Both the position numbers and the translations under genes were made by a program. A DNA stretch of 64,000 bases, taken from positions 26,292 through 90,291 of IMG/VR virus record IMGVR_UViG_3300025889_009691. One strand, written 5' to 3'. This DNA is from a virus. Below, in pieces: positions 21,419-54,474 of the stretch (its first letter is position 1; every line of letters starts with the position of its first letter). The notes below the pieces were generated by a model. That model searched no databases, was not told the DNA's origin, and was given only the letters and a program-made list of their open reading frames with translations.

Positions 21419-21498
21419 ACTTGACAGAGCAGACGCTAAGTCTAGCCCTCAGGGCAAGTCAATACGGTATTGAACGACAACGAAATTGGAGGCTAAAG

Positions 21499-23529: not shown

Positions 23530-23599
23530 ACATTGCTTGCGTGGGAGTGTAGATTTTTATATGCTATTGTTGATATGTATTGTCTACATGAGGTTAATC

Positions 23600-24337
23600 A
23601 TGAGTATTCCAACAGTTAGTAGTCGGGTCAATGTTAAAGACCTGCACCCTAAGTTTAAGGCCCGTCTGGAAGCGTTCTTTGCTGATCCACGTATTGCGGG
23701 CAAGGTTGCTGTTGTGTCTGGTGTTCGCACCTACCAGCAGCAGAAGTACCTGTATGATGGCTATAAGAGCCGTAAGCCCGGTTTCAATCTGGCAGCTAAC
23801 CCGGACCGTGTAAACAGCGCCGGGTTTCAGGGTTCGTATCATATGAGCCAGCCGAAGTTTGATGGTTACGGTTATGCGGTTGACTTCCGTATCATCAAGC
23901 GGGGTTCTATCTCTACCACGCAGGTGAATAAGATTGCTGAAGAGTATGGTATTCGTAAGACCGTGGCTTCGGAGTGGTGGCATCATCAGCCGTGTCGTGT
24001 GAGCGGTTCGAAGATGGATTGGTTCCCTGTTAAGGGCGATATCAAGGTTCCGAAGGCTGCGTCGGTTAAGTCTGAGCAGGCTCAGGCGCTTGAGTTTATT
24101 GCGGCGTGTTTTAAGACTGTTGTGCGTCGTGGCGATAAGGGGCCGGTTGTTGAGTTCCTTCAGAAGCTTCTGGATAAGAACGGTTACAAGCTGACTTCTC
24201 GTCCTCGTAAGAATTCTGGCGTTGACGGCGACTTCGGTGCTAAGACGTTGAAGGCTGTGAAGCAGTTCCAGCGTGATGAGGGTCTTGCTGCGGACGGTGT
24301 TGTTGGTCCCAAGACTTGGGCAGCGCTTGCTGACTAA
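23600..24337 (+). CDS. M15-family peptidase with C-terminal peptidoglycan-binding domain (lysin)
   Basis: 245 residues from ATG 23600 (GAGG 6 nt upstream); earlier starts from 23537 would add an unsupported hydrophobic run. Residues ~35-135 fit an M15 D-Ala-D-Ala/LD-peptidase: SGVRTYQQQKYLYDGY, SYHMSQ..DGYGYAVDFRI (His and Asp zinc ligands) and SEWWHHQP (Glu and His). Residues ~165-245 are a peptidoglycan-binding domain (DKGPVVEFLQKLL ... GVDGDFGAKTLKAVKQFQ ... DGVVGPKTW). It cuts cell-wall peptides. Its place between tube and tail chaperone is odd for an endolysin and leaves open a tail-associated role. Confidence 0.88.
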   Translation: MSIPTVSSRVNVKDLHPKFKARLEAFFADPRIAGKVAVVSGVRTYQQQKYLYDGYKSRKPGFNLAANPDRVNSAGFQGSYHMSQPKFDGYGYAVDFRIIKRGSISTTQVNKIAEEYGIRKTVASEWWHHQPCRVSGSKMDWFPVKGDIKVPKAASVKSEQAQALEFIAACFKTVVRRGDKGPVVEFLQKLLDKNGYKLTSRPRKNSGVDGDFGAKTLKAVKQFQRDEGLAADGVVGPKTWAALAD

Positions 24338-29888: not shown

Positions 29889-31352
29889 ATGAACTTTTTA
29901 CCTCTAGACAGTCTACTCATCGGTGAACTTGACGAAACCGAACTGAAAGAAATCAAAGAAGGCATCATGAACCTATCTATTGATCTCACAAGCAAAATGG
30001 TAAGCGAGCTAAAGTTCACAGTCTACGACAACAACTTTAACATGTTTACCAACAACTACTTTATCATTGGGCGAAGAGTTACTTTCCTTAATGAAGAGTA
30101 CGAAATTGCTGAAGCGTCGCTAAACTTCAATGCCCGCAACCGCAACATTACAGTTCGTGCAAGGTCACGAGCAACAGAACAGATGCGGAAAGATAAAGGC
30201 GCAAAGTCGTTTGGTAACATTTCGCCTTCAATTTTTGCTGCCAACATGGCTGAAAAGTTTGGGTTGCAAATTTTTGCTGAAGATAGTCCACGGAAAGCGA
30301 TCAAACGAGAAGCTTCGGAGAATAAAGAAGAGTCTACGTGGGATGTTCTTGTTCGGTTGGCTAGAGAGTTAGAGTTTATGTGTTTTGAGGCTAGAGGGGT
30401 GTTGTTCTTTGCGTCTCAGGATTTTATTGCGGATCATGCTCCTGAGGTTACTATTTCGACTCCTCCGTTTCAAATTAACACATATGGTGAGTTGGATTAT
30501 TCTAGGATTTCGGGTGAGAATCCGTTGGAGGCTACTTCGCTTGATTTTAAAGCTTCGCAGGATGAGGAGAAGCCTTATAATGGTTCTTTGTCGTTGTTGA
30601 CGAATGCTACTAGTAGGTCTTTTTATCCGGGTGTGGTTGTTAAGCTTCCAGATTTGACTGCAAAGTATGGTAATCCTCGTTTGATGGTTGAGCGTGTGAG
30701 TGTGGAGGCTGGTGTTGATAAGTTGGTGAGGATTACTTGTTCGTCTGTTGATTCGTTAGAGGAGCTTGAGTGTAAGTTGAAAACATTTGAGAGGGGTGCG
30801 TCTGGTGATTGTGTTAAGCGTATTCAGCGTGCTGTTAAAACTCAGGTTGATGGGAAGTTTGGTCCGGCTACGGAGGCGGCGGTGAAGCGGTTCCAGGCGT
30901 ATGTTGGTTTGCCTGAGACTGGTGTTGTGGATGCTGCGACGTGGGATAAGATTGAGAGCACTACGGTTGATTTCCCGTTGCAGACGAGTAGTGGCATTAC
31001 GAGTCGCTCAGCTAGTACGTCTACTACGGATGATGGTGGGGTTTCAGAAGCGGAACGGCTGGCAGCTGCTAGAAGGCGGCAAACTGAATTGGAAGATCGT
31101 GAGAGGAGATTACGTTCGCCGGGTATTACAGCAACTAAAAAAGTATTGTCTCCTACGGACGCTGAAATTGAAGCGGGTGTTCTTAGAGTAAAGAAGGCTG
31201 CTAGTGCGATTGTGGACAATTTCTTGGAGATTGTGTCCCCGCCTCGAACGAATCCTACGGTACCGAATGAGGTATTAACTGACTTTTGGAATAGTCCACA
31301 GGGTATCGCTTTGGCTGAACACCACAAAGAAAAAGGGAACATACTACCTTAG
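29889..31352 (+). CDS. Tail hub protein (XkdQ/gpD-like) with peptidoglycan-binding domain
   Basis: 487 residues. Residues ~1-290 resemble the XkdQ/late-control-D type hub (LSIDLTSKMVSELKFTVYDNN ... RNITVRARSRATEQMR ... STWDVLVRLARELEFMCFEARGVLFF). Residues ~300-365 are a peptidoglycan-binding domain (GDCVKRIQRAV ... VDGKFGPATEAAVKRFQ ... GVVDAATWDKI). The C-terminal tail is charged. The hub caps the tube end and holds the spike; the added wall-binding domain would anchor it in peptidoglycan during entry. Confidence 0.78.
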   Translation: MNFLPLDSLLIGELDETELKEIKEGIMNLSIDLTSKMVSELKFTVYDNNFNMFTNNYFIIGRRVTFLNEEYEIAEASLNFNARNRNITVRARSRATEQMRKDKGAKSFGNISPSIFAANMAEKFGLQIFAEDSPRKAIKREASENKEESTWDVLVRLARELEFMCFEARGVLFFASQDFIADHAPEVTISTPPFQINTYGELDYSRISGENPLEATSLDFKASQDEEKPYNGSLSLLTNATSRSFYPGVVVKLPDLTAKYGNPRLMVERVSVEAGVDKLVRITCSSVDSLEELECKLKTFERGASGDCVKRIQRAVKTQVDGKFGPATEAAVKRFQAYVGLPETGVVDAATWDKIESTTVDFPLQTSSGITSRSASTSTTDDGGVSEAERLAAARRRQTELEDRERRLRSPGITATKKVLSPTDAEIEAGVLRVKKAASAIVDNFLEIVSPPRTNPTVPNEVLTDFWNSPQGIALAEHHKEKGNILP

Positions 31353-31365
31353 GATAGATTGAATT

Positions 31366-34300
31366 ATGGTTTCTAGAGCAATAAACACAGCATACTCTAC
31401 AGGCGGCGGCGCTAACGGTCTTTGGCGTGCCATCGTACAAGCAGTAAACGACAACTCTCTTAACGTTACTATTCCACGTTTGGGTCAAAACAACGTGTAC
31501 GAAAACGTGCCGTATATTGGTTTCACTCCGCAGGTTGGTGACCGTATTTGGGTTGGGTTTATTGAGGGTCGTTCTTTTGAGCCTGTGGCGTTTGTTGGCG
31601 CTAATAACACTTCTGGTGATCCCGCAGAGGCTGATATAACAGAGGTGATCGCTGGGCTTGGTTTAAGCGGCGGAGGCGATACTGGTTCGGTTACGATTGA
31701 CTTTGAACCAAGCGAACTCACAACCGTGACATTAGCATACGACGACAAAGTAGTCATCAGTGATGACAGCGATAGCGGCGAACCTAAGCTCGTTCCTATC
31801 TCTGAAGTGATCACAACCGCTAATGGTGACGGCGGCGAGCCTATCGGTCATGAAGACAAATCCGAGAGCGTTATCTCTTTTGATTATTCCACGAGAACTT
31901 TTACGATTGCCCCCGTAAGCGACAGTTATGTGGTTTGGTGTGCCGGTCAGAAGTTTGTTAAGACAGATTCTGAGAGCGTAGTTATCGGTAGTTCTTCGGA
32001 TTTGTACTACATTTCGTTTGACGCTGAAGGCGTGTTGCAGGCTACTACGACATTTTACCAGTGGGATTCGGAAACCCCTACTGCTTACATTCATTACAAC
32101 TCTGGTGAGCCTGCTAAGTACATGCTGTTTGATGAGCGGCACGGTATTGTTTTGGATTGGCAGACGCATGAGTATTTGCATCGAACCCGTGGAGCGGCGA
32201 TTGCTAATGGCTTTGATGCGTCTAATTTTGATGTTTCTACACAGAATGGTAGCACTGACGATCAGGCGTATATTGATATTGCTGATGGTACGTTCTTTGA
32301 TGAGGACTTGCAGGTAGATATTGTTCATTCTAATACTCCCACGGCGAATACGTGGGAGCAAGATTTGCAGGGGCCTGCTCAGATTCCTGTGTTTTATCAG
32401 AGCGGCACGACTGGGTGGACTTATGATGCTCCAACTAACTTCCCTTTGAAGTATGGTGGTACTCCTAGTCCGACTTATAATTTGAATTCTGGTGGCACGT
32501 GGAGCACTCCTGAGATCACTTCAAACAATTATGGTATCAGTTGGATCGTGGCAACTAACCAGTTGAATTATCCTGTGATTGCGATTATGGGTCAGGATTA
32601 TTACACGAATGTGGGTGATGCTGAGGCGGTGACTTGGGATTCAATGAATCTTGACGATTTGCCTGTGGTTGAGTTGCGGGTATTGTATAAGGTTATTTAT
32701 CGTGCTTCTGGGTCGAACACTCCGGGCGCTTATTTTGTTGAGGTTGATGATTATCGTAGGGCGTTGTCGTCTGCTACGAGTACTGCTGCGGCTGTGGTGG
32801 ATCATGGTAATTTGACTGGTTTGGGTGATGATGATCATACGCAGTATTTGTTGGTTGATGGTTCTCGTGATGCTGTTGAGTTGACGGTTACTGGTGATCT
32901 TGTGGTTGATACGGACACGTTGCATGTGGATGCAACGAATGATCGTGTTGGTATCGGCACTACGTCTCCTGCTGCGGCTCTTGATGTGGCAGCGACTGGG
33001 GCGGATGCTGTTCACCTTCATGGTCAGGTTCGTATTGATGGCGCTGACCCTAGCCGTTTGACTATTGGTGCGAAGGATTCAAGCAACCTCTGGAATCTGG
33101 ACAACAACAACGGGACGCTTCGGATTTTCCGTGAAAACTGGGCTGCTTCGGGCACTGGCTCAAGCGGTAGCACCAAAATCACCATAACCGATGACGGTGA
33201 TGTGGCGTTTGATACGGACACGTTGTTTGTGGATGCAACGAATGATCGTGTGGGTATCAACACTACCTCTGTGACTGCTGGTCATGTTTTGGAGACAAGA
33301 GGAGCAGTCCTCATCTCGTCTACGGCTGGCGTTGGCAACACGCACTTCCCGTTCACCGACGGACGGTTCTATTACACCGCCGACCCGGAGACGGGCGGCA
33401 CAGGTGACCATGTGTTCCGTCATTACAGTGGTGGTTCGTATGTAGAGCAGATGCGGATTTTGGAGGGTGGCAAGGTCGGCATCGGCACTAATTCGCCTGT
33501 TGCCGGGTTGGATATTGCTACGACTGCTGGCGACACATGGACGACTAACGGTTGGGATTCGGGCCTGATTCTCAACGCAGCTTCGGCGCTGCGTTGGCGG
33601 ACCGCCAACGGTGTCGATTGGGGAATCGGCAACTCCGGCTCGACCCTCTACTTCATGTCGTCTACGAGTTCTACTACGGGTGCGGCTGCTGATTATCGGA
33701 TGGTCATAAACGGAAGCGGTCAGGTGGGCATTGGCACCACGGCGCCTACTGCGGGTTATGAGTTGGACGTTATCGGAGATGGCCGGTTCAGCAGCAGTGT
33801 CTACGCACAGCTCCACAACTCAAACAGCAACCAATCACGAGACAAGCTGCGGGTGTGGGATAGCTCTCCGTTTACCATTGGTATGAAGACCGGCTACTCG
33901 TTCGGATACCTCGGCGGTGTGACCACCGGCACCGATTACGCCATGTCGTTCCAGATGAGTAACAACGCTAACCGTGGCTGGTGGTGGGGCGATACTGGTC
34001 ACACCGACGCTCAAGGTGCGATGTCGCTGACGACGCAAGGACAGCTCTACGTTGCCACTCGTATTCATGTCGGTGGTGGCGAGTCAAGGACCGATCCGCT
34101 GACGACGTACAACTTCGTCAACAGTGGCACGTCGTACCTGTACGGCAATGTTTCAGCACCCGGCATTTACAATCTCACGACAGTAGCGACCACGCCATAC
34201 ATCCATTTGAGTTCAGGCACCTACGCCTACAAGCTTTACCGCTCAACCTCGACGCTTGCGTCCAAGCGGAACATCGAAGAGTTGAGCGACACTTACGCCG

Positions 34301-34608
34301 ACCTCATGCTTCAGTCTCGGCCTGTTTGGTATCAGTCGGCTGTTGAGACTGACGACCCTGGCTGGTCATGGCTCGGCTTGATCGCTGAAGAACAAGCCGC
34401 TCTTGATCCTCACCTTGCCAACTGGCAGGTGCGGGAAGATTGGGAAGGCGAGGAGTTTGAGCACCTGTCGATGTACCCAGCCGAAGCACTTGAAGTTTCA
34501 GGTGTTCCCTACGAAAGATTGTCGGTGCCTTTGTTGTTGCTGTGCCAGCGTCAGCAGCGAGAGATTGACGACCTTCAAGCACGACTAGCTGCGCTAGAGG
34601 CACAGTAA
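31366..34608 (+). CDS. Spike-fibre fusion: gp5/gpV-like OB domain and C-terminal S74 chaperone
   Basis: 1,080 residues. The N-terminal ~90 residues look like a gp5/gpV OB domain (LWRAIVQAVNDNSLNVTIPRLGQ ... QVGDRIWVGFIEG). A long fibre-like region holds repeats such as DTLHVDATNDRVGIGTTSP (nt ~32,915 and ~33,215) and KVGIGTNSPV. The last ~110 residues fit a peptidase S74 intramolecular chaperone (LASKRNIEELSDTYADLML ... WLGLIAEEQAALDPHL), which trims itself after folding. DNA from about nt 33,050 to the end is richer in G+C and in NNC codons than the first half, suggesting a fibre tip of different origin. Confidence 0.8.
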   Translation: MVSRAINTAYSTGGGANGLWRAIVQAVNDNSLNVTIPRLGQNNVYENVPYIGFTPQVGDRIWVGFIEGRSFEPVAFVGANNTSGDPAEADITEVIAGLGLSGGGDTGSVTIDFEPSELTTVTLAYDDKVVISDDSDSGEPKLVPISEVITTANGDGGEPIGHEDKSESVISFDYSTRTFTIAPVSDSYVVWCAGQKFVKTDSESVVIGSSSDLYYISFDAEGVLQATTTFYQWDSETPTAYIHYNSGEPAKYMLFDERHGIVLDWQTHEYLHRTRGAAIANGFDASNFDVSTQNGSTDDQAYIDIADGTFFDEDLQVDIVHSNTPTANTWEQDLQGPAQIPVFYQSGTTGWTYDAPTNFPLKYGGTPSPTYNLNSGGTWSTPEITSNNYGISWIVATNQLNYPVIAIMGQDYYTNVGDAEAVTWDSMNLDDLPVVELRVLYKVIYRASGSNTPGAYFVEVDDYRRALSSATSTAAAVVDHGNLTGLGDDDHTQYLLVDGSRDAVELTVTGDLVVDTDTLHVDATNDRVGIGTTSPAAALDVAATGADAVHLHGQVRIDGADPSRLTIGAKDSSNLWNLDNNNGTLRIFRENWAASGTGSSGSTKITITDDGDVAFDTDTLFVDATNDRVGINTTSVTAGHVLETRGAVLISSTAGVGNTHFPFTDGRFYYTADPETGGTGDHVFRHYSGGSYVEQMRILEGGKVGIGTNSPVAGLDIATTAGDTWTTNGWDSGLILNAASALRWRTANGVDWGIGNSGSTLYFMSSTSSTTGAAADYRMVINGSGQVGIGTTAPTAGYELDVIGDGRFSSSVYAQLHNSNSNQSRDKLRVWDSSPFTIGMKTGYSFGYLGGVTTGTDYAMSFQMSNNANRGWWWGDTGHTDAQGAMSLTTQGQLYVATRIHVGGGESRTDPLTTYNFVNSGTSYLYGNVSAPGIYNLTTVATTPYIHLSSGTYAYKLYRSTSTLASKRNIEELSDTYADLMLQSRPVWYQSAVETDDPGWSWLGLIAEEQAALDPHLANWQVREDWEGEEFEHLSMYPAEALEVSGVPYERLSVPLLLLCQRQQREIDDLQARLAALEAQ

Positions 34609-36551: not shown

Positions 36552-37313
36552 ATGGCTAAGATACTGTATTACGATATAGAGACGGCACCGAACCTAAGTA
36601 TGGTTTGGGGCCACTACGAGCAGAATGTGATTACACATGAGCGAGAGTGGTATATGCTTTGTGTCTCTTACCGTTGGGAGCACGAGAAGAAGTCTCATGT
36701 GACTTCGCTGGTTGACTTCCCTGCGGACTATAAGAAAGACCCTGAGAACGACTTCCACGTGGTTAAGAAGCTGTGGGAGTTGTTTGATGAGGCTGACATT
36801 GTGATTGCTCACAACGGTGACAAGTTTGATATGCGTAAGGCTAACGCTCGTTTCGTGGCCCACGGTTTAGGTCCTGCGTCGCCTGTTAAGTCAATAGACA
36901 CGTTGAAGGTTGCCCGTAAGTACTTTATGTTCAACAGCAACAAGCTAGATCATCTGGGCGATCATTTGGGCGTTGGCCGTAAGGTTTCTACCGGAGGGTT
37001 TGAAACCTGGGCCGGTTGTATGCGTGGCGATATGAAGTATTGGAAGTTGATGATTAAGTATGCTAAGCAGGATGTTGATTTGCTTCGAAAAGTTTATCTT
37101 CAGTTGCGTCCTTGGATGACGAATCATCCTAACCTTAACATCTTTGATGGTACGAATGCGTGTCCTACGTGTGGGTCTAAGCGCTTGCAGAAGCGGGGTA
37201 CTAAACGTACACAGGTGTCGGTTTACCAGCAGTATCAATGTAACGACTGTGGGTCTTATTCTCGTCAGCGAGTCGCTGATGCTGACGCTATCAAGCCTGA
37301 GATTGTTCCCTGA
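36552..37313 (+). CDS. DnaQ/RNase H-like 3'-5' exonuclease with C-terminal zinc ribbon
   Basis: 253 residues. Exonuclease motifs: ILYYDIETAPN (ExoI, Asp-Glu), IVIAHNGDKFDMRKANARF (ExoII, Asp), and IKYAKQDVDLLRKVY (ExoIII, Asp). The layout is that of YprB/RNase_H_2-type nucleases. Residues ~203-240 form a zinc ribbon (CPTCGSKR ... YQCNDCGSYSRQR) that could hold nucleic acid. It probably acts in DNA or RNA processing during replication; the polymerase gene 2 kb downstream has its own exonuclease domain. Confidence 0.85.
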   Translation: MAKILYYDIETAPNLSMVWGHYEQNVITHEREWYMLCVSYRWEHEKKSHVTSLVDFPADYKKDPENDFHVVKKLWELFDEADIVIAHNGDKFDMRKANARFVAHGLGPASPVKSIDTLKVARKYFMFNSNKLDHLGDHLGVGRKVSTGGFETWAGCMRGDMKYWKLMIKYAKQDVDLLRKVYLQLRPWMTNHPNLNIFDGTNACPTCGSKRLQKRGTKRTQVSVYQQYQCNDCGSYSRQRVADADAIKPEIVP

Positions 37314-37324
37314 TTTAGATTGTT

Positions 37325-37558
37325 ATGTTTACATCAGACGATCTGTATGGAATGGCTCCAGACAAGTTACTAGTTTCTGACGACTTTACTGTCTGGTACG
37401 CCTTTTATGACGATGAACTATCCGTGCTGTCCAATGCTGAGGGCACGCTTGAAGCTTACAGTTACGACAATAAGTCGGAGTATCGTGAAGTTCGTCGGTT
37501 TATTAAAGAGCAGTATCCTGTGAAAGAGACAAATGCGTACACCTACGATGAAGATTAG
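37325..37558 (+). CDS. Hypothetical acidic protein
   Basis: 77 residues, rich in Asp/Glu/Tyr (LYGMAPDKLLVSDDFTVWYAFYDDELSVL...). No motif is recognised. It overlaps the start of the guaB-like gene, so translation is probably coupled. A TAGATT lies 3 nt before the ATG, too close for the usual leaderless pattern. Confidence 0.65.
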   Translation: MFTSDDLYGMAPDKLLVSDDFTVWYAFYDDELSVLSNAEGTLEAYSYDNKSEYREVRRFIKEQYPVKETNAYTYDED

Positions 37559-38582
37559 ACCCAAAGCTTACACGTTTGATGATGTGCTAATTGTTCCGAA
37601 GTATTCGGAAGTGCGAAGTCGAACAGATGTAGACTTGTCCGTAAAACTAGGCAAGCATCATTTAACGATGCCGTTGATCGCCGCCAACATGGACACAGTA
37701 TGTGGTCCTATCATGGCTAGCGAAATGGATCGTTTGGGTAGCTTTGGGGTCATGCACCGAAACATGCCTCTTACTTCCAGTGGTGACCCGTTGACAAGTA
37801 CACGGTTTGGTTCCGTTGCTGGACGAACTATTAGGTCAGCAGTTGCTTTTGGAGTTAACGAAGACCTAGACCTTGTTGTGAGTGAAGCAAACAGTTGGCG
37901 TACCCAAATTCTGGTACTAGATATTGCTCACGGTCACAGCAAGCACGCTTTGAATGCCCTGCAGTACGTCATGTCAGGGATTGAACATGAAGCCACGTTT
38001 ATTGGCGGAAATGTTGCTACTCGTTCAGCTGTTGAAGATTTTGCTAAGATTGGTGCAGATGTAGTGAAGGTCGGCATTGGTCCTGGCAGCGTGTGCTCTA
38101 CACGGGTGGTTGCAGGCGTTGGTGTTCCGCAGTTGACGGCTATTGCAGATTGCTCTATAGTAGCAGATGCGGTAGGCATTCAGGTTATTGCTGACGGCGG
38201 AATCAAGACGCCTGGAGATGCTGCTAAGGCTATTGCTGCAGGTGCTGATGCTGTCATGATCGGCGGCATGTTTGCTGGAACTGACGAAGCCCCCGGAAAG
38301 AAGTTTACTCTGGAAGACGGCACTGTGGTCAAAGAGCACCGTGGCATGGCGTCTGCTGAGGCAGGCTCTGCTTTCCCTGAGGGTGTTTCAGGGGTTGTGG
38401 CATCAAAGGGGCCGGTTGCGGATGTAGTGGAGTCGATTAACCGAGGTATCCGCTCTGCTTGTAGTTATGTTGGTGCTAGCTCACTGGCGGAGTTGCAGTC
38501 TAATGCAGAGTTTGTTGAAATATCTCCGGCTGGTTTGCGAGAATCCGCTCCGCATGATATAATCAACGCTAACTTATGGTAA
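37533..38582 (+). CDS. guaB: IMP dehydrogenase/GMP reductase family enzyme without CBS domains
   Basis: 349 residues (345 if ATG 37548 is used). The N-terminus [18 protein letters not shown], the catalytic loop [20 protein letters not shown] with the active-site Cys, the phosphate site [25 protein letters not shown] and the C-terminal ...[16 protein letters not shown]...[11 protein letters not shown] are classic. IMPDH turns IMP into XMP; GMP reductase runs GMP back to IMP. The HRGMAS flap and C-terminal pattern favour IMPDH, but the length without CBS domains resembles GMP reductase. It would enlarge guanine nucleotide pools for phage DNA. It overlaps the polymerase start by 7 nt. Confidence 0.9.
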
Positions 38583-40510
38583 ACGAAGACTCTATTACAC
38601 TTTTTGATGACTGGCTACATGCGACCGCACACGGCGACAACGCTTTAGGAGAAGTCGTTCTGGTTCGTTCAGACGACGCCTTTAGTGATTTTCGTGACTG
38701 GTTGCTTGAGCGGCAGCGCCCTTTGGCCTACGACATTGAAGCGAGCGGCCTTGATACGTATTCGCCTGAATGGGTAATTAAGAGTATTCAGTGGGGCGAC
38801 CAAGACAAGGCGTTTGTTTTTATCTGGAACGAACCGTGGTTTCAGAAGTCCATTGATCTGGTTATGAGCGAGACAGACTATAGGCTTCTCGCACACAATG
38901 CCACATTCGATGCGCTAGGTCTAGATCGTCACAACCACGTTGATGCTATAGAGCTTCTGGCTCGCACATATGACACGAAGATTTTGGCGCATTTGGCTGA
39001 TCCTCGCAGCCGTCAAGAAGGCGGCGTGGGACACGGCTTGAAGAACTTGGCTGCCCATCATGTAGATAAGTCTGCACCTGACTCTGACTCTGCTTTGAAA
39101 GAAGTGTTTCAACAAAACAAATGGTCAGTTCAGCAGGGTTGGAAAAACATCCCTGCGACTCACCCTACTCTTGTGCAGTATGCAGGTATGGATGTTATTT
39201 TGACTGCGAGACTTTTTCCTAAGTTGCGTCAGGAGATTAAGCGTCAAACGATGGATCATCTTGTGAAGTATGAGCATCAAATTCTTATGCTTGTTGCTGG
39301 TATGGAACGACGTGGTATGCGTATTGATATTGAATACGCTAAGCGTTTGGTAGAAGACATGACTAAGGAAGAGCATCGCAATATTGATATTGTGAAGAGC
39401 TTTGGTGTTGCTAATCACAACGCCACGAAAGATGTGGCGGCTGGGTTGCAGGCGTTAGGCGTGAAGCTACTTGAGACTACGAATTCAGGCGCTTTGAAGG
39501 TTGATAAGACTATCTTAAACGCTATTTGCGATGATGAGGATGCGGGCGATGCTAGAGTTCTTGCTCAGGCTGTTATGGCCGCAAAGAACAATGCAAAGTG
39601 GCGTGATTCTTATGTAACTGCGTCTCTGGCGTCTATGGATTCTAACGGCAGAGTTCACCCTAAAATTAACAGTTTGCAGGCGAGAACTGGTAGAATGTCT
39701 ATCAACAATCCTCCTTTGCAGCAGTTGCCTTCAGGAGGCGATGCTATACGTCGAATGTTCTTAGCAGAAGAGGGTTGCCGAATGGCTTCAATTGACTTTT
39801 CTGGTGTAGAGTTGCGTGTATTAGCGGCCCTATCTCAAGACCCTGTTATGCTAAAAGTCTTTAAGGAGGGCGCTGACCTTCACCAGACTACGGCGGACAA
39901 CACGGGCGTGACTCGTAAAGTAGCCAAGACTGTTAACTTTGGTAAGGTTTACGGGGCAGGACCTAAAACTTTGGCTCGTCAATCAGGTCTAACTGTTGAA
40001 GAAGCCCAGAAGGTTTGTGACTTGTTTGACAGCACATATCAAGGTGTAACCAAGTTTTCGCACCAGTTAGCGTTTCCTGTTAAGAAAGGTCAGCGTAGTT
40101 ACGTTGTGACCCACACTGGACGTAAACTGCCGGTAGACGAAGAGCGCCCCTATGCCGCCCTGAACTACTGTATTCAGTCCACGGCTAGAGATGTGCTTGG
40201 TAGAGCGATGCTGAAGGTGCATGATGCGGGCCTGTGGGATTACGCTGTTCTTCCCATCCACGATGAAATTTTGTTTAGTTTCCCTGAAGACAAGGCTGAA
40301 GAGCTTTGCCGTGAAGCAGGTGTAGTTATGGAGATGATTCTGAAAGATGTCCACATTTCAACAGAGCCTGACTTGGGTGGAAGTTCTTGGGGAACGTTAT
40401 ATACAGAAGGCGAACACGACGTGATTGAGTTGAACGATGAGGACCGCAGAACGTATGGCGACGAGCATCTCATTAAGCACCTGTTTGAGTCGCAAACGTT
40501 CGAGTTTTAG
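38576..40510 (+). CDS. polA: Family A DNA polymerase with 3'-5' exonuclease
   Basis: 644 residues. Exonuclease: YDIEASGL (ExoI), LLAHNATFDALGL (ExoII), VQYAGMDVILTARL (ExoIII), all acidic ligands present. Polymerase: motif A IDFSGVELRVLAAL, motif B RKVAKTVNFGKVYG and motif C LPIHDEILFSF. The residue equivalent to E. coli Pol I 762 is Phe. There is no 5'-3' exonuclease domain. It is the probable replicative polymerase of the phage. Its start overlaps the guaB-like stop, linking precursor supply and DNA synthesis in one operon. Confidence 0.95.
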   Translation: MVNEDSITLFDDWLHATAHGDNALGEVVLVRSDDAFSDFRDWLLERQRPLAYDIEASGLDTYSPEWVIKSIQWGDQDKAFVFIWNEPWFQKSIDLVMSETDYRLLAHNATFDALGLDRHNHVDAIELLARTYDTKILAHLADPRSRQEGGVGHGLKNLAAHHVDKSAPDSDSALKEVFQQNKWSVQQGWKNIPATHPTLVQYAGMDVILTARLFPKLRQEIKRQTMDHLVKYEHQILMLVAGMERRGMRIDIEYAKRLVEDMTKEEHRNIDIVKSFGVANHNATKDVAAGLQALGVKLLETTNSGALKVDKTILNAICDDEDAGDARVLAQAVMAAKNNAKWRDSYVTASLASMDSNGRVHPKINSLQARTGRMSINNPPLQQLPSGGDAIRRMFLAEEGCRMASIDFSGVELRVLAALSQDPVMLKVFKEGADLHQTTADNTGVTRKVAKTVNFGKVYGAGPKTLARQSGLTVEEAQKVCDLFDSTYQGVTKFSHQLAFPVKKGQRSYVVTHTGRKLPVDEERPYAALNYCIQSTARDVLGRAMLKVHDAGLWDYAVLPIHDEILFSFPEDKAEELCREAGVVMEMILKDVHISTEPDLGGSSWGTLYTEGEHDVIELNDEDRRTYGDEHLIKHLFESQTFEF

Positions 40511-40573
40511 GTCTTCATTAGAAACAAAACTGTGGTGTTACTAACAAAGCTAGTCATTTACCCGCAAAAGTTA

Positions 40574-40625
40574 CTGGTCGGGCTTGACTGTACTACTGAT
40601 TTGGTGTAAAATCGGACCCGACTAG
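40574..40625 (+). promoter_or_regulatory. Sigma factor promoter bracketed by an inverted repeat
   Basis: TTGACT (40584-40589), 17-nt spacer, TAAAAT (40607-40612). CTGGTCGGG (40574-40582) just upstream and CCCGACTAG (40617-40625) at the start point form a 9-bp inverted repeat with one G-U/mismatch, enclosing the promoter. A regulator bound at both arms could block it. Confidence 0.65.
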
Positions 40626-40696
40626 TGTCCAAACACAGTCAAATACCTACCATCGTCATATATACGGCCACTTTGGCCAAAGAAAGGAGTACGTTA

Positions 40697-41620
40697 ATGT
40701 CAGGATACAAGAGGAGTTCAAAGCACAAAATTCTTACCAGAGAAGAAGAAGTTGTGTTAGGGCGTACAGTCATTGAAGGGCAGGAGGCCGCTAAAGCATT
40801 GAATGATGCGCATATCGAAGGTATCAACTTAGATTTTAGTGAGCGCCGCAAGCTGCAAGTGGCTGTTCGTGAAGGTAAACGGGCCAAGGACACATTTGTG
40901 GAGCACAACCTTAGGCTAGCCATGGATACGGCTGCAAAGTACGCTAGGTCCCAGTCTCGTCTTGAGTACGAAGATTTGATCCAAGAAGCCACTATTGGTC
41001 TTATGCGGGCAGTAGATAAGTTTGACCCTGAGCGTGGATTCAAGTTCTCTACATATGCCACGTGGTGGTGTCGTCAGGCTTGTCAGCGGGCAATTGCCAA
41101 TTATGGCCGTGCTATACGTCTACCTATGCATGTTGAGGCTGATGTGCGTAAGTTGGCTGCTGTTGTTGATGAGTTTTCTACTTATCAAGATACTGTGTCT
41201 CGGCATGAGGTAGCAGAGTTTTTGGGCTGGGAGTTTGACTATTTGGAAGACATTTGGGAACACATGGACAACTCCAAGCTTGAATCTTTAGATAATCCTT
41301 TGTCTGAAGAGAGCGGTATCACGTATGCCGACACTCTTGTAGACAGCGATCAAACTCCCGTGGAAGATGTCGGAACTGAGTCTTCGTTCGCTAATGACAT
41401 TCTGAAGGCTTTGTCAATTCTTCCTGAACGTGAGTACAACGTGCTTGTCATGCACCACGGCCTTGCTGGCTTGCAGGAGCCTATGACTCTACAAGACATT
41501 GGCAACCATATGGGGCTGACTCGTGAGCGTGTGCGACAGTTGGAAGCTAAAGCTATTGCACGGTTGAGGCATCCCTCGTCTGGTGTTGCTTGGGCATTTA
41601 CGCAGAGCGAAGAAAACTAA
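40697..41620 (+). CDS. Sigma-70 family RNA polymerase sigma factor
   Basis: 307 residues from ATG 40697 (AAAGGAG 7 nt upstream; an earlier frame from 40625 begins at the transcription start). Region 2: EDLIQEATIGLMRAVDKFDPERGFKFSTYATWWCRQACQRAI, including the -10 recognition helix. Region 3: HEVAEFLGWEF. Region 4: LPEREYNVLVMHHGL ... TLQDIGNHMGLTRERVRQLEAKAIARL, the -35 HTH. It is closer to primary-type sigma factors than to T4 gp55. It probably steers host RNA polymerase to phage promoters. A GGCCA-CTT-TGGCC hairpin (40665-40677) sits just before the ribosome site. Confidence 0.93.
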   Translation: MSGYKRSSKHKILTREEEVVLGRTVIEGQEAAKALNDAHIEGINLDFSERRKLQVAVREGKRAKDTFVEHNLRLAMDTAAKYARSQSRLEYEDLIQEATIGLMRAVDKFDPERGFKFSTYATWWCRQACQRAIANYGRAIRLPMHVEADVRKLAAVVDEFSTYQDTVSRHEVAEFLGWEFDYLEDIWEHMDNSKLESLDNPLSEESGITYADTLVDSDQTPVEDVGTESSFANDILKALSILPEREYNVLVMHHGLAGLQEPMTLQDIGNHMGLTRERVRQLEAKAIARLRHPSSGVAWAFTQSEEN

Positions 41621-43455: not shown

Positions 43456-43761
43456 GTGGCACACGTAGGGCTTTCGTACCCGTTTAGGGTAGATAATGAC
43501 AATCGACGTTTTGGTACCGTTGCTAGCGATACGGACACATACAAGGCTGAGCAGATTCAGAGTTTTATTCGCACGCACAGAAACGAGCGTCTGATGTTCC
43601 CGGCGTTTGGTATTGTTGATCCCACGTTTGATAAGTTTGATGCAAGCACGTTTACAGAAGGCTTCAGCAACTTTTATAAGAGTAATGATATAAAGATCAC
43701 TAATGTTAGTACGGCGTCTTATCAGGGTGCTGTTACTGATGTTCTAATTGATTTCGAGTGA
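43456..43761 (+). CDS. Baseplate wedge protein, gp25/gpW-like
   Basis: 101 residues, starting with GTG after GGAGGAG. The pattern GLSYPFRVDNDNRRFGTVASDTDTYKAEQIQSFIRTHRNERLMFPAFGI is typical of the T4 gp25 family (lysozyme-like fold without activity), which starts sheath assembly at the baseplate. It overlaps the next gene's upstream region and is followed by the gpJ/gp6-like gene in the usual order. Confidence 0.88.
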   Translation: MAHVGLSYPFRVDNDNRRFGTVASDTDTYKAEQIQSFIRTHRNERLMFPAFGIVDPTFDKFDASTFTEGFSNFYKSNDIKITNVSTASYQGAVTDVLIDFE

Positions 43762-43768
43762 GGGTAAG

Positions 43769-45388
43769 ATGGCTGATTCACCTGATGTTAGAGAGTATAT
43801 AGACTTAACAATTTTTGACGAAAACCCTGTCACGATTTTGAATGATATTCTGACAACTGGCCGTGGTTTGCTTCCAGAATGGCAGCCGCAGGTTGGTCAG
43901 ATTGAAGTGGTGTTGGCGGAGGCGTTTGCTGTCAGGTCGGCTGAAGTTGTGAACGCAATCAATCGTATCCCTGCTGCCACGACTGAAGTGTTACTGCAGT
44001 TGTTTGGGCTTACTCGTTCTGATGGTGTTAAGGCTACCGCTACTCTTAGTTTGACTTTTACTGAGACAGCGACGTTGCCTGCTGGTACAGAGTTTTTGTA
44101 CGTTAACGCAGTTTCTGGCGTGTCGTACATTTTTACGCTAGATGAAGATGCTTCTTTGACGGTAACTGCTCCGGCTGAGACAGCTACTGGCACGTTTGCG
44201 GTCACGGCTCAGACTGTAGGTACTGCGTATAATTTCTCCGCTGACGGTAACTCGCTTGCGTTGCTGGCTCGTACCGCTACCTTCTTAGAGTCAGCGTCGT
44301 TTTCGGTAAGCCCCTCTGGTGGCAAGAACGCTGAGACCGATACTGAGTACTTTAGTCGTGGTGTGACTCTTTTAGCAAGTTACACTTCTGCGGCTACTAC
44401 TGCTAACCAAATTAAGTATTATACTTCAGGCAATAAAACGTATGCGAACCGTGTGGGTGTGTTTAATCGCCGCAGGTACCGTGATCGTGACACTACGGCT
44501 GATTCTTATGGTTTCCACGATGGTTCGGTTTTGGTTGCTGTGGGTCAAACTGTGTCTAATGCGGCTTCAGCTACGCAAGAGCTTACTGTATCTGCAAGTA
44601 ACCTGAATGATCTTTATGAGTCGTTGGATGAGCGCACTCCTTCTGGGTTGACGATTGATGTGATGTCTGCTGAGCTTGCTGAGATTGATGTTACGGCTAC
44701 GGTTCAGAAGAAAACTGGTTTCACGGCTAGCACGGTTCAGACTGCTATTACGAATGCGCTTAAGGCTTATATTGAGCCTAACACTTGGGATTTTGATCAT
44801 TCTACTGTTCGACGTAATGAGATCATTGCGTTGATTGATGGTGTTGAAGGTGTGGATTATGTTTCGTCTTTGACTATGAACGGAAAGTCTTTGGTTGGGT
44901 CGGATAATGTGGGGTATTTTGCGGATGCTGGTGGTTCAAAGGCTTCGTTTACTATTGACGTAAACTCTGACGCAGCGTCTAAGACTTATATTGCGGGCGC
45001 TGCAGCTATTTTCTACGTTGATTCTACTAGTTCATCAGAAACTCCAGTTGTTTACTTGTACACAAATGAGGAATTCACAACGGACGGATCGGGTAATGCA
45101 ACCGGTGTGGCTTACACTGCTGTGGCTAACGGCCTTCTGTACAATGATGAAACCCGTGGTGGCTCTATTCCAGATGGCACCACTTCGTTTACTGCGGTTG
45201 CTGGCGATTGGGAGGATGCAACTACAGTCACGTTTGCTAGCACATCCACGATTAGCGGCGGTAGCGCTGACTCGTCTACGTTTACCCCGCTAGACTCCGA
45301 CACAGACCCCGCAGTCTCTACAGACATTGCGTTACGAAATCTGGGTACGCTTGTAATTTATGGTGACCTTTCCATAACAGTGGTGTAA
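43769..45388 (+). CDS. Baseplate wedge protein, gpJ/gp6-like, with extra C-terminal beta domain
   Basis: 539 residues from ATG 43769. The first ~370 residues fit the baseplate J family (LPEWQPQVGQIEVVLAEAFAVRSAEVVNAINRIP...LLQLFGL ... GGKNAETDTEYFSRGVTLL ... NALKAYIEPNTWDFDHSTVRRNEIIALIDGVEGVDYV). Residues ~385-510 form a different domain (ASFTIDVNSDAASKTYIAGAAAI ... NEEFTTDGSGNATGV ... GDWEDATTVTF...ISGGS) that recurs at the N-terminus of the next protein. Confidence 0.87.
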   Translation: MADSPDVREYIDLTIFDENPVTILNDILTTGRGLLPEWQPQVGQIEVVLAEAFAVRSAEVVNAINRIPAATTEVLLQLFGLTRSDGVKATATLSLTFTETATLPAGTEFLYVNAVSGVSYIFTLDEDASLTVTAPAETATGTFAVTAQTVGTAYNFSADGNSLALLARTATFLESASFSVSPSGGKNAETDTEYFSRGVTLLASYTSAATTANQIKYYTSGNKTYANRVGVFNRRRYRDRDTTADSYGFHDGSVLVAVGQTVSNAASATQELTVSASNLNDLYESLDERTPSGLTIDVMSAELAEIDVTATVQKKTGFTASTVQTAITNALKAYIEPNTWDFDHSTVRRNEIIALIDGVEGVDYVSSLTMNGKSLVGSDNVGYFADAGGSKASFTIDVNSDAASKTYIAGAAAIFYVDSTSSSETPVVYLYTNEEFTTDGSGNATGVAYTAVANGLLYNDETRGGSIPDGTTSFTAVAGDWEDATTVTFASTSTISGGSADSSTFTPLDSDTDPAVSTDIALRNLGTLVIYGDLSITVV

Positions 45389-45397
45389 GGCGGAACT

Positions 45398-48300
45398 ATG
45401 TCCCATAGAGTTATCAACGCCTTTTCTAGAACAAATCGAGATTTTGACAACACCGGCAACTTCGCTACAAGCTTTGCTTCGTTTACGATAGATGTTGATA
45501 CAGACTTAAGTTCTGAGACAACTTTTGCTGCAGGCGACGCTAGTATTTCATTCACAGATTCCGGCACCGGTATCGTCTACTATTACGATAACGAAGAATT
45601 CACGACAGACGCTTCAGGGGATGCAGTAGGTGTGCAGTTTACGGCCACAGTTGCGGGCGCTACAGAAAACGACACCAACTACGGTGGTTACGTTACAGCA
45701 GGAACAACTAGTTGGGACAGAGTTTCAGGAGATTGGTCTGGTGTAACATCGTCCACGTTCTCAAACATTTCAGCCATTTCTGGTGGCTCCACTGCAAATG
45801 GTGAGTGGAAGATGTTGAAGGGTGACCGTGATAATCGATTAAAGGTTATTGACTTTCCCCTGTACCCTACATACATTCCGAATGAAGCAGCACCATATAG
45901 ACTTAACTCTTTAGTGGTGCGTGCAGGCGTTCAAGACCCTGTAAGCGATATTGTTATTGTTTCGCCGTATGTGGCTGTTGAGGCGGAGAAAGATTTTAAT
46001 GCGGGCATTGCTGCCGTGGCGGTTATTGGAGGATTTGATTTTACACTAGATGTTGAGTTTGCAGCTAACACTTCTGGATCGGCTGAAGACATTATTGCTC
46101 ATACAACTACGACTAGTGCGACTGAAGCCGCAGAAAGCAAGGCTTTTCCGCTGTTTGGTTACTTCAAGTCGCCGGTTGGTGCGCAGTATGCACGGTTGAA
46201 GGTTACGGTCAGCGGCATTGACACGGCGGCAATTTCTCGTAACGACATGTTTGCGTTGTTTGATCCGTTCATGACTTCTATCGGTATAGAAGAAATGGGG
46301 GATGTCTCAGCTAGTATTTACAACTCTCTACCGTCTTTCATGTTGTTAGACGACTTAAACATTAACGATCTTGTGTCTTCATCAGCCGGTTTTCAAGCTA
46401 ACCAGCCGCTACGACGCTACTTAGAAACTCTGGCTACTAAAGTAGACGAAGTTTATACAGAGTTAAAAGAATTTCGGTATGATCGTGCCATCGCAGGAAC
46501 AGAACACAAATCTAAACTAACTGATCCTGATACTGCCCTGTCAGCGTATCTATTCTGGCTTGCGTCGGTTACCGGCTCCACGTTGCTCATTAATTCGAGT
46601 GGGTTCTCACCGTGGGCTGCCCTGGAAGAGTATGAAGGTGCACCTGTATCTGGCGACCCTGGCGAATGGGAAGACTTAGAAAGTCTAGATGACTGGCTAG
46701 CTCTGCAAGACGTTGACCCAGACTTCTTTGATACCACACAAAGTTTCCGAGATCAGTTGCGTACAGGCTTTACCGGCTTAAACGGTGGCCGTCCAGACAC
46801 TATTGAAACTTTTGTGCGGACAATGCTTCAATCAGCTACAGCATCAACAGACGCTGTTGTTGTTAGAAACGAAGATATGGACAACCCCTTCAGGGTTGAA
46901 GTTTTGATTGACCCTAACTCTGATCCTGATCCTACTGGGTCGCTGGTTGCGGATGCGGTAAATAATGGGTTGTCGGCTGGAACGTTTGGTACAAAAACTA
47001 CTCAGGTAATGCAGTCGGGCCGTGGCACATATGATTTCTCTGAAGTAGTGTATCCCAATACGGAATCCGATGAGAATGCAGCAGGGTCGGTTATCTACGG
47101 GCAGCCTCTAATATCTGACTACGACAACCACATACGGCACATTGTGCTGAACACTACGTCAGCTTCTGCTTCAATTCCTGAGCTTGGCGGCGGCGTTGCA
47201 GACAGCCACTATGCTGCCGAGTCTGCTTACTTCTATGGTGATGTAAGTTCGTCCACACCTGGGTCGCTTACCACGGCTTCAAGCAGCCTTGCTGACTTGA
47301 GTGCCGCAACTTCCTACGACATTATTGCTGTCTTAACTGATGTAACTCCTCCGACGGCGGCAGTTTACTCAGGCACAGGTACCGGTACTCCTGACCCGTA
47401 TCTGTTTAGAGAGAAGCGGCTCATTGTTGCGGGGACCGACTCGTCAGGGTCAGACAATGACTGGGCGTTGTACATGGTGTCCGGGTTAACTCCTTCTGCT
47501 GACAACTCCGCACGGTTGTTGTTTGTCGATGGGTTCCAAACCGAAAACTCTACTAACTACGCTTACTCTGATCCGATTGACGGAACGATCTTTAGCCAGC
47601 ACAAAGACATTTGTGTTCGGTTCACGAAAGACGCTTCAAACAACTACACGTTTGCGATTCAGAATACTCTGTATGACGATTGGTCAGACAACACTATTGG
47701 TACGGGTTCGTTCACTCCTGTTTCGGCTTCAGGTGGTGCAGATTCAGGCGTGCAGGTTTTGGGTGAGTTAGACAACAGTTTGTGGTCTGACGCTAGCCCG
47801 CTGTCTTGCGCCGTGAAGCGGGTTATGTTGTTTAATTCAGAAATTGTGTTTACGGGAGAAAGCGATACTTCGTCTGCTGACCATGCTGTTGTGAACGGCG
47901 ATTCTGTTGATGACTACGGGTTGTTCTCGTACACTCCAACTATTGACATTGATCTTAGTGCCGTAACGAAATATGCGTCAACGTTCAATGCGACTTCTTA
48001 CGACTCAGGCACTACAGGCTCCTTGGCCGTTACCGTAAACACAGCGTCTTCAAACGACATTGATATTTTGGCAATGCGTAAGCACTCGACTTACGGATCG
48101 TTGTGGCATTTCGGCAACACTTACGGGTCAGGCAACGGCGACGATTTAGTGGTTTCAGGGTTGACTTCTGGTACATACGACTGGACGGTTTTCAAGATTA
48201 CTCCAAGCACGGGCGCTATTGATAGCTCCAGCACAGGTACTACAGGTGCAGGCGTTACATCTATTACGTTCAGCGCTGATGACTATAGTGGAAACACTGT

Positions 48301-49015
48301 GCTGTCTATTGAAGTTGTTGCGACCGGAGACGCTTTTGGTACAGGTACTGCTGCTGGCGGTAACGCTGTAGCATTCTTTGAGCCTGACACTATCGACACA
48401 ATTGATAGCGCTACAGAGTCTAGCGGTACTGACGATCAGGGAGCTACTTGGACTTTGACACGTGGCTGGCCTACAGGCGGCACATACTCTCCCAGTCAGC
48501 CTATTGACAAAGACATGATTCATATGTATGAATCGTCACCTAAAATTGCTAACGCTCCTTCCCTTGAGCATTGGTCTCCGTTCTCTGTAGTGATGCACGT
48601 GCGTAGGTTCTGGACTGGTACTGAAGGCGTTGATACGTTTGATGTTTTAAAAATTCAAAATGCTGATGGCCACGGCCTGCACATCTACTACGACGGGCCT
48701 AAACTTAAAGCAGACTATACTGATGGTACGGAGACTGAATCTGTAGAGTGGACTGAATCCCCTGATTACGGTTCTTGGCATCGGGTTGTTGTGCGTCGAA
48801 ACAAAACAAATCTAAGTTTGGTGGTTGATGGCACTAGTATTGATACGGCTTCTGTTGCTTTAACTTCGCCGTTCTCAGCAGAAACTAGTCTGGCATTTTT
48901 GAGCGAAGGAGCGTTGAGTTCTTGGGTTCCTCGTTTCGGTTTGGCCCATTTTGGTTTCTTCTCTAGGTACCTTGAAGATAATGAAATAACGCTTCTTGAG
49001 AGCGAAATTTCATAG
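45398..49015 (+). CDS. gpI-like baseplate protein with shared beta domain and C-terminal LamG-like domain
   Basis: 1,205 residues. Residues ~20-130 repeat the domain ending the previous protein (ASFTIDVDTDLSSETTFAAGDASI ... NEEFTTDASGDAVGV ... GDWSGVTSSTF...ISGGS). Residues ~290-510 fit a phage tail protein I region (IYNSLPSFMLLDD ... QPLRRYLETLATKVDEVYTEL ... SAYLFWLASVTG). After a long beta-rich region with bacteria-surface-type composition, residues ~1050-1205 look like a LamG/concanavalin domain (GLHIYYDGPKLKADYTDGTETE ... WHRVVVRRNKTNLSLVVDG), likely to bind glycans. It links wedge to fibres. Confidence 0.8.
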   Translation: MSHRVINAFSRTNRDFDNTGNFATSFASFTIDVDTDLSSETTFAAGDASISFTDSGTGIVYYYDNEEFTTDASGDAVGVQFTATVAGATENDTNYGGYVTAGTTSWDRVSGDWSGVTSSTFSNISAISGGSTANGEWKMLKGDRDNRLKVIDFPLYPTYIPNEAAPYRLNSLVVRAGVQDPVSDIVIVSPYVAVEAEKDFNAGIAAVAVIGGFDFTLDVEFAANTSGSAEDIIAHTTTTSATEAAESKAFPLFGYFKSPVGAQYARLKVTVSGIDTAAISRNDMFALFDPFMTSIGIEEMGDVSASIYNSLPSFMLLDDLNINDLVSSSAGFQANQPLRRYLETLATKVDEVYTELKEFRYDRAIAGTEHKSKLTDPDTALSAYLFWLASVTGSTLLINSSGFSPWAALEEYEGAPVSGDPGEWEDLESLDDWLALQDVDPDFFDTTQSFRDQLRTGFTGLNGGRPDTIETFVRTMLQSATASTDAVVVRNEDMDNPFRVEVLIDPNSDPDPTGSLVADAVNNGLSAGTFGTKTTQVMQSGRGTYDFSEVVYPNTESDENAAGSVIYGQPLISDYDNHIRHIVLNTTSASASIPELGGGVADSHYAAESAYFYGDVSSSTPGSLTTASSSLADLSAATSYDIIAVLTDVTPPTAAVYSGTGTGTPDPYLFREKRLIVAGTDSSGSDNDWALYMVSGLTPSADNSARLLFVDGFQTENSTNYAYSDPIDGTIFSQHKDICVRFTKDASNNYTFAIQNTLYDDWSDNTIGTGSFTPVSASGGADSGVQVLGELDNSLWSDASPLSCAVKRVMLFNSEIVFTGESDTSSADHAVVNGDSVDDYGLFSYTPTIDIDLSAVTKYASTFNATSYDSGTTGSLAVTVNTASSNDIDILAMRKHSTYGSLWHFGNTYGSGNGDDLVVSGLTSGTYDWTVFKITPSTGAIDSSSTGTTGAGVTSITFSADDYSGNTVLSIEVVATGDAFGTGTAAGGNAVAFFEPDTIDTIDSATESSGTDDQGATWTLTRGWPTGGTYSPSQPIDKDMIHMYESSPKIANAPSLEHWSPFSVVMHVRRFWTGTEGVDTFDVLKIQNADGHGLHIYYDGPKLKADYTDGTETESVEWTESPDYGSWHRVVVRRNKTNLSLVVDGTSIDTASVALTSPFSAETSLAFLSEGALSSWVPRFGLAHFGFFSRYLEDNEITLLESEIS

Positions 49016-52803: not shown

Positions 52804-54474
52804 GTGGCCCAAAAATTCTTAACTAATCTTGATTTGAATAAAAATGAGCTGCAGAATGCTAAGGTTCAGAACCTGGCTACGGCTCCTTCAAGTCCTGCTA
52901 CTGGTCAAATCTACTTTGACACGGTAGATGGTGAGCTTTATGTTTATGACGGTTCTTCGTGGGTTGGCCTGCAGGAGCAGGGTGACATCACGGCTGTTAC
53001 TGCTGGCACTAACCTTAACGGCGGCGGCACGACAGGTGCTGTCACTGTAAACCTAGATACTACGATCACTGGGCTTACTTCTGTAACGTCAACCGGCTTT
53101 ACTGGTGCTCTTACGGGTAATGCTGACACGGCTACTGCTCTTGAGACTGCCCGTACCATTGGTGGCGTTTCGTTTGATGGTTCTGCAAACATTGACCTTC
53201 CGGGCGTAAACACTTCAGGCACTCAGGACACGAGCGGTAATGCTGCGACGGCCACGGCCCTGGAAACAGCTAGAACGATCGCTGGCACCTCCTTTGACGG
53301 AACCGCAAATATCGACATTGACGCAAATAACCTGACAGGGAACACTCTTAACTCTGGCGTTACTGCTTCTTCTCTGACAAGCGTCGGCACGCTTACAGGC
53401 TTGACTGTATCCGGTCTTATTACCGCTAACGGTGGCCTAACGATTCAAGCCACGGATACGTTTACGTTTGATAGCGTGGCGTTGACCACGGTCCAGACAA
53501 GCGGCGAGTCTTTTGCTGATAACGATACGTCGTTGATGACTTCAGCAGCGATCAACGACTTGGTTGGTTCGAGCGGCGTCACGAGCCTTACTGGTACCGC
53601 AGGCGAGGTTGAAGTAGATACTACTACCGGCGATATTACGATTGGGTTGCCGGACAACGTTACTATCTCGGGCAACCTTACGGTAAATGGTGATACTACC
53701 ACGGTAAACACAGCTACTCTTTCTGTTGAAGACCCGCTGATTGTTCTTGCTAACGGAAACAACGCTACCGACTCGGTAGACATTGGTTTCTACGGCCTGT
53801 ATGACACTTCTGGTTCGCAGGACCTTTACGCTGGCCTTTTCCGTGACGCTAACGACAGCGGCAAGTTCAAGCTGTTCGCTGATCTCCAGGCTGAGCCTAC
53901 CACTACGGTTGATACTGGTGGTGCGGGTTACACGGCGGCTACGCTGGTCGTGGGCACGCTGGAAGGTGCTGTCACTGGTAACGTGACTGGTGATGTTACG
54001 GGTAACGCTGATACTGCTACGGCTCTTGAGACTGCACGCACGATCAACGGCACGTCGTTCGACGGTACAGCTAACATCGTAGTTACCGCAGCAGCAGACA
54101 CTCTTACTGAAACTGAACTAAACTCGTCGGTTGTTACTTCGTCGTTGACGGCTGTGGGCACAATCGCTACGGGCGTGTGGCAAGCAACTGATGTTGGAGT
54201 TGCCCACGGTGGTACAGGCGCTTCGACCGCTGCCGGTGCAAAAACTAACCTCGGCTTCGTTGGTCGGCACGCTGAAACGATCGGTGATAACGCCGCTACG
54301 TCTATTGCTGTCACACATAACTTCGGGACCGATGATGTTGTCGTAGAGGTCTACGATGCTTCCACGAAGGAAACTGTCATTTGTGACGTTGATCGAACAA
54401 GCACGAATGCGGTCACGTTGACGTTCTCTACAGCCCCTGACACTGACTCTCTCCGAGTGGTTGTTATTGGCTGA
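52804..54474 (+). CDS. Tail fibre protein with TATALETARTI repeats
   Basis: 556 residues, GTG start after GGAGG. Typical shaft repeats (TATALETARTIGGVSFDGSANIDLPG, TATALETARTIAGTSFDGTANIDI, TATALETARTINGTSFDGTANIVV) recur three times. The C-terminal head (IGDNAATSIAVTHNFGTDDVVVEVYDASTKETVI) is a common fibre tip. It is a host-recognition fibre. Codon choice in nt ~53,100-54,450 is richer in C-ending codons than neighbouring genes. Confidence 0.87.
   Translation: MAQKFLTNLDLNKNELQNAKVQNLATAPSSPATGQIYFDTVDGELYVYDGSSWVGLQEQGDITAVTAGTNLNGGGTTGAVTVNLDTTITGLTSVTSTGFTGALTGNADTATALETARTIGGVSFDGSANIDLPGVNTSGTQDTSGNAATATALETARTIAGTSFDGTANIDIDANNLTGNTLNSGVTASSLTSVGTLTGLTVSGLITANGGLTIQATDTFTFDSVALTTVQTSGESFADNDTSLMTSAAINDLVGSSGVTSLTGTAGEVEVDTTTGDITIGLPDNVTISGNLTVNGDTTTVNTATLSVEDPLIVLANGNNATDSVDIGFYGLYDTSGSQDLYAGLFRDANDSGKFKLFADLQAEPTTTVDTGGAGYTAATLVVGTLEGAVTGNVTGDVTGNADTATALETARTINGTSFDGTANIVVTAAADTLTETELNSSVVTSSLTAVGTIATGVWQATDVGVAHGGTGASTAAGAKTNLGFVGRHAETIGDNAATSIAVTHNFGTDDVVVEVYDASTKETVICDVDRTSTNAVTLTFSTAPDTDSLRVVVIG

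Follow-up and report, generated by a model that had tools for sequence, protein, structure and literature searches.

The J-type and I-type baseplate wedge proteins encoded side by side in the 64,000-nucleotide stretch analysed here (the window; positions 26,292 to 90,291 of IMG/VR virus record IMGVR_UViG_3300025889_009691) carry homologous copies of one beta domain. In both proteins the domain is an insertion into a site that is empty in relatives, and the J insert occurs at more loci than the I copy. The explanation that we hold, with good confidence, to be the right one as a whole is that the wing domain of J was duplicated within J, that the neighbouring I gene later received a copy of this second wing, and that the additional wings act as extra docking arms.

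Results

The J gene was found as a 546-aa open reading frame at 43748..45388 (+ strand), which by comparison with relatives probably starts at the ATG at 43769. Its product was identified as a J-type baseplate wedge protein from the Pfam family Baseplate_J (PF04865; E 6e-21, residues 85-359, 75.3 bits versus a curated cut-off of 21.1), from PDB wedge proteins and from homologues in Arthrobacter, Gordonia and Brevibacterium phages that are annotated as 'baseplate J protein'. The gene lies between a phrog_5026 baseplate gene directly upstream (43456..43761, +; E 1.7e-16) and a gpI-like core downstream, in a contractile-tail phage with a tail sheath gene at 21421-23007. The phrog_5026 gene stands where the gp25/gpW-like sheath initiator is usually found, and we infer its role from this gene order. 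Within J, the ordinary copy of the wing domain, found in all J proteins compared and termed core wing below, covers residues 86-201 (44003..44350, +). The putative second wing (residues 386-525; 44903..45322, +) resembles the core wing by profile and predicted fold; it is an insertion in the C-terminal (dimerization) region. Downstream of it, alignment and tail comparison place the conserved last strands of J, ALRNLGTLVIYGDLSITVV (45323..45388, +).

The I-type wedge protein (1205 aa; 45398..49015, +) begins 9 nt past the J stop and shares its frame with J. Both genes thus lie in one reading frame, with one stop codon and 9 nt between them (45386-45398), in the window as well as in the related locus L006; J and I are also in frame at 5 of the 14 other insert-bearing loci. 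The N-terminus of I (MSHRVINAFS..., 45398..45466, +) is the start of a CBM-like jelly roll, delimited by an empty-site alignment with the I proteins of 12 related loci. The third wing copy is inserted in this N-terminal module at residues ~24-134 (45467..45799, +; junctions accurate to about 5 residues) and was detected by BLASTP to the J insert. The remainder of the CBM-like jelly roll follows (residues 135-295; 45800..46282, +), as judged from a predicted model and Foldseek, and then the gpI-like core (residues ~302-530; 46301..46987, +). In an hhalign comparison, this core proved related (Prob 96.9, P 1.6e-10) to gpI-like proteins that come from other actinophages and from viral contigs. 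A search for Tail_P2_I (PF09684) with the core of the window I gave no match, and two of the gpI-like relatives match this family weakly, at ~1e-3, just below the cut-off.

According to a model of medium confidence, the module interrupted by the wing copy in I is a jelly roll of CBM-type fold. Foldseek matched the model in the PDB to CBM22, CBM4 and CBM16 (E 2e-6 to 1e-5, prob 1.00). Local pLDDT values were mostly 62-88 from residue 171 on; the model was used for the jelly roll only, since the region of the wing copy was poor (pLDDT ~40).

The initial annotation had proposed that the gpJ-like and gpI-like proteins contain related domains with a gene boundary between them. This was confirmed by BLASTP of the whole proteins (97.8 bits, E 4e-25, 48% identity over 136 columns) and by the profile comparison that had been named as a check, where I copies and J inserts matched with P 1.4e-16. 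The homologous stretches are J residues 399-506 (nt 44942-45265) and I residues 27-131 (nt 45476-45790), with a domain identity of 54% over 104 aligned columns; the cut-out domains gave a local score of 270 versus a maximum of 86 among 2000 shuffles. In DNA the two copies are ~56% identical, and the duplication is therefore old. A third close copy was sought across the whole 90 kb record and was not found. The C-terminal and N-terminal positions originally assigned to the domains did not hold, although their homology did: both copies are insertions. J continues for 40 residues past its copy, the conserved final strands included, and 26 residues, mostly native to I, precede the I copy, so that neither copy is a terminal domain.

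The J proteins of Brevibacterium phage Cantare, Gordonia phage UBSmoodge and Arthrobacter phage Hirko are 374-386 aa long and lack the insert. Compared with them, the window J has ~140 extra residues, which sit directly ahead of the final conserved strands LxxLGTxxITV. The survey of related phages suggested earlier, carried out by scans of viral contigs, yielded the insert in 16 distinct J proteins and the copy in two I genes. Past the common J region, insert-bearing proteins have tails of 153-168 aa, most others of 21-41 aa. Twelve related I genes have an uninterrupted N-terminal module with the pattern MSHR..NAFS..FG...GGW.....FY.KYVPG. When all ORFs of all fetched loci were searched with the domain profile (hmmsearch), the I copy was present in the window and L006 only; it was absent from the ORFs of the other 14 of the 16 loci with an insert-bearing J. 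The insert-bearing loci are metagenomic contigs with no cultured hosts, and neither cultured phages nor bacterial genome contigs yielded a relative of the domain when searched.

Another observation concerned the site of insertion in J. At the same C-terminal place, L024 (L024:1772-3493) has a different extra sequence of 119 aa in its J tail, and J of L079 (L079:6010-7338) a different one of 79 aa. These two cases suggest that domains may generally be accepted in the C-terminal loop of J.

Most likely, the repeated domain is an additional copy of the wing that J itself has; the insert was read as a second wing because of its profile matches and its Foldseek matches to J-type proteins. The insert profile repeatedly, if weakly, matches J's own residues ~80-190, and the profile-profile comparison of insert and J core is collinear over the entire domain. 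The hhalign score of this comparison was 38.3, versus a mean of 11.5 (SD 1.9, maximum 18.6) for permuted columns. With the cores of insert-free J proteins only, it was 26.6 versus a permuted maximum of 19.7. Owing to the shallow profiles, the corresponding hhalign probability amounts to only 28-58%. In 47 insert-free J proteins, all credible matches of the insert profile fell inside the core wing (L077 with E 9e-6, L083 with 0.002). The core region itself aligns with Mu gp47 residues 75-184 and matches by position domain II of XM1 gp16 (residues 87-178), which was called 'wing-like' (PMC10457771).

The structure of the insert, predicted from 17 sequences (pLDDT 76, pTM 0.69), pointed in the same direction. 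Foldseek matched it in the PDB mainly to J-type wedges (Pa193, phiCD508, E217, phi812, A-1(L), Mu and XM1) and in BFVD to 'Baseplate protein J-like' entries, with prob up to 1.00, weak E values (best 0.003 viral, 0.04 PDB) and TMq ~0.5, the matched region of the targets being unreported. On the sequence level, the I copy is tied to wings solely by way of the J insert: compared directly with the core wing it gave P 0.48 and no match, versus the P of 1.4e-16 obtained with the insert.

It appears improbable to us that the insert is an unrelated beta domain from outside that is merely wing-like. Its direct HMM scores are indeed low, and L024 exemplifies that the C-terminal loop of J elsewhere takes unrelated sequence, but the collinear full-length match of insert and core exceeds every permutation, matches of the insert profile are limited to the J wing, and J-type proteins dominate the Foldseek results. 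Furthermore, an outside source or relative of the insert was sought in phages, viral contigs and genome contigs, and none was found. A Pfam search with the insert gave a chance-level match to PGM1_C only, and a PDB sequence search with the insert profile found nothing.

In a maximum-likelihood tree of the 18 copies, the I copies were nested within the J-insert tree. They fell, together with the window, L006, L012 and L014 inserts, into a six-row clade with support 100/99, as sister to the window and L006 J inserts with moderate support (86/77) and on a long stem (0.91). Their exact branching among these four lineages is not fixed by the tree (p-AU 0.23), whereas a group of the window J and window I copies was rejected (p 6e-55). 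Among the window and L006 copies, 22 site patterns were of the ortholog type, 1 was concerted and 1 crossed. The I copy is old and predates the split of the window and L006. These site counts and the p of 6e-55 rule out that the copies evolved in concert or underwent recent gene conversion. I modules and J inserts were wrongly aligned by MAFFT when combined in one alignment, which was left out of the analysis.

Several other genes of the window were noted as well. A DNA polymerase exonuclease subunit, a dehydrogenase-family gene, a DNA polymerase and a sigma-70 factor (36552-41620) are flanked by tail-hub and baseplate wedge genes, and L006 has the last three in the same order. An endolysin-like gene with a peptidoglycan-binding domain (23537-24337) is flanked by the tail sheath and tail assembly chaperone genes, and a 955-aa protein with a 'ParB C-terminal domain' match (18327-21194; phrog_2579, E 4e-36) by head-tail adaptor and sheath genes. 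Different parts of two separate large proteins (31366-34608 and 52804-54474) match the same tail-fibre-type PHROGs, 3299 and 37852; these proteins may have fibre modules in common.

Discussion

Arguing by analogy, the best-supported function of the extra wings would be that of extra docking arms, because wings in solved baseplates dock to the hub, to a hydrolase, to the sheath or to tail fibres. Diffocin wings touch the hub hydrolase and those of phiCD508 touch sheath domain III. The wings of XM1 cover an inner Ig-like protein (PMC10457771), and the two conformers in A-1(L) use the wing differently, one to dock the hub and the other the long tail fibre (PMC10966104). Solved contractile baseplates have two J chains and one I chain per wedge (PMC10457771). 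With this composition, two extra arms would emanate from J and one from I in each wedge, and they could offer docking surfaces for tail fibres, for a hub-associated cell-wall-binding protein or for the distal sheath ring. As candidate partners, the window encodes the contractile sheath (21421-23007) and, in the tail region, a protein with a peptidoglycan-binding domain (29889-31352). We would only tentatively go further and regard the wing as a reusable docking cassette that is mobile between wedge proteins, with core wing, J insert and I copy as three generations; up to 18 additional wings per baseplate might then form an extra ring that re-wires the attachment of fibres or hub enzymes.

Two other functions had been put forward in the initial annotation, docking of the neighbouring proteins through like domains and display of a shared receptor module, and we give both a low probability. 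In the first, J insert and I copy would dock like with like, as a pseudo-dimer. Related machines do have J and I in one wedge, and the window and L006 keep both copies as distinct conserved paralogues, as seen from the 22 ortholog-type sites against a single concerted and a single crossed one. However, a partner copy in I is lacking for 14 of the 16 distinct J proteins with the insert, so that the insert functions without one, and known wings contact non-wing partners, namely hub, hydrolase, sheath and tail fibre. The proposal is weakened by both observations.

A receptor-binding module shown twice is just as doubtful. The fold matches of the insert are wedge scaffold proteins and not lectins or carbohydrate-binding modules, and between the window and L006 the I copy is 86% identical, compared with 80% for the rest of I, a variability no higher than that of its surroundings and unlike that of typical receptor tips. 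The idea of a shared receptor module is thus not supported by our data, even if the insertion loops are probably exposed, the I copy sits within a CBM-like fold and its long stem branch of 0.91 fits a changed constraint. To judge from the predicted model, the jelly roll of I would be a better receptor-binding candidate than the wing copy, with putative glycan binding. Residues 1071-1168 of I (48608-48901) gave a laminin-G-like match just below the Pfam cut-off, and this C-terminal end is possibly a second putative sugar-binding module in I.

The duplication itself, as postulated from the outset, was borne out, and tree and locus distribution now give it a direction. Copying from J to I is strongly supported because 16 J proteins carry the insert versus two I copies, which are nested in the J-insert tree. 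That the I copy was ancestral and was lost in other lineages is very unlikely, although the order within the window/L006/L012/L014 clade, only partly settled by the tree, speaks for it. The I copies would then have to lie outside the J-insert tree, or to have been lost several times, whereas they sit in one J subclade (support 100/99), and the module is uninterrupted in 12 other I genes. For the duplication from J to I we propose three steps. The wing would have been duplicated in J of the clade ancestor, into the last loop of the dimerization domain. In the common ancestor of the window and L006, the neighbouring I gene would then have received a copy of the second wing, within the first part of its CBM-like N-terminal module, and the J and I copies would subsequently have diverged.

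The window thus presents a polarised case of a structural domain that was duplicated within a baseplate protein and of which a copy then passed to the neighbouring protein, the empty sites being kept in relatives. It is a real case of part-reuse in a phage attachment machine, and the machine itself is of a familiar kind. Should fibres or hub proteins dock to the additional wings, domain reuse of this kind would be a route from simple to more elaborate baseplates, with the lineages of the window, of L006 and of L012 and L014 as a natural before-and-after series.

Comparison with known systems

The window J belongs to the same family (PF04865) as the J-type wedges Mu gp47, XM1 gp16, diffocin Tri2 and A-1(L) gp31. 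It shares with them the order of N-terminal helices, wing and dimerization domain, and also gp25-like and gpI-like neighbours. Every J-type wedge protein compared carries one wing, between the N-terminal helices and the dimerization domain; the window J differs from the known ones by the second wing inserted near its C-terminus. The window I likewise has, after J, a gpI-like core as in the gpI-type wedges (Tail_P2_I, XM1 gp17, diffocin Tri1). It differs from these by the CBM-like N-terminal module with the wing copy, together ~300 aa, and by its long C-terminal part, which gave a weak laminin-G-like match. A further parallel is the insertion (wing) domain of A-1(L) gp31, which, like the domain in the window, is a beta domain of a wedge protein, and which docks to the hub or the long tail fibre (PMC10966104). 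The wing of A-1(L) gp31, however, corresponds to the single ordinary wing of J, whereas the window has additional copies in both J and I.
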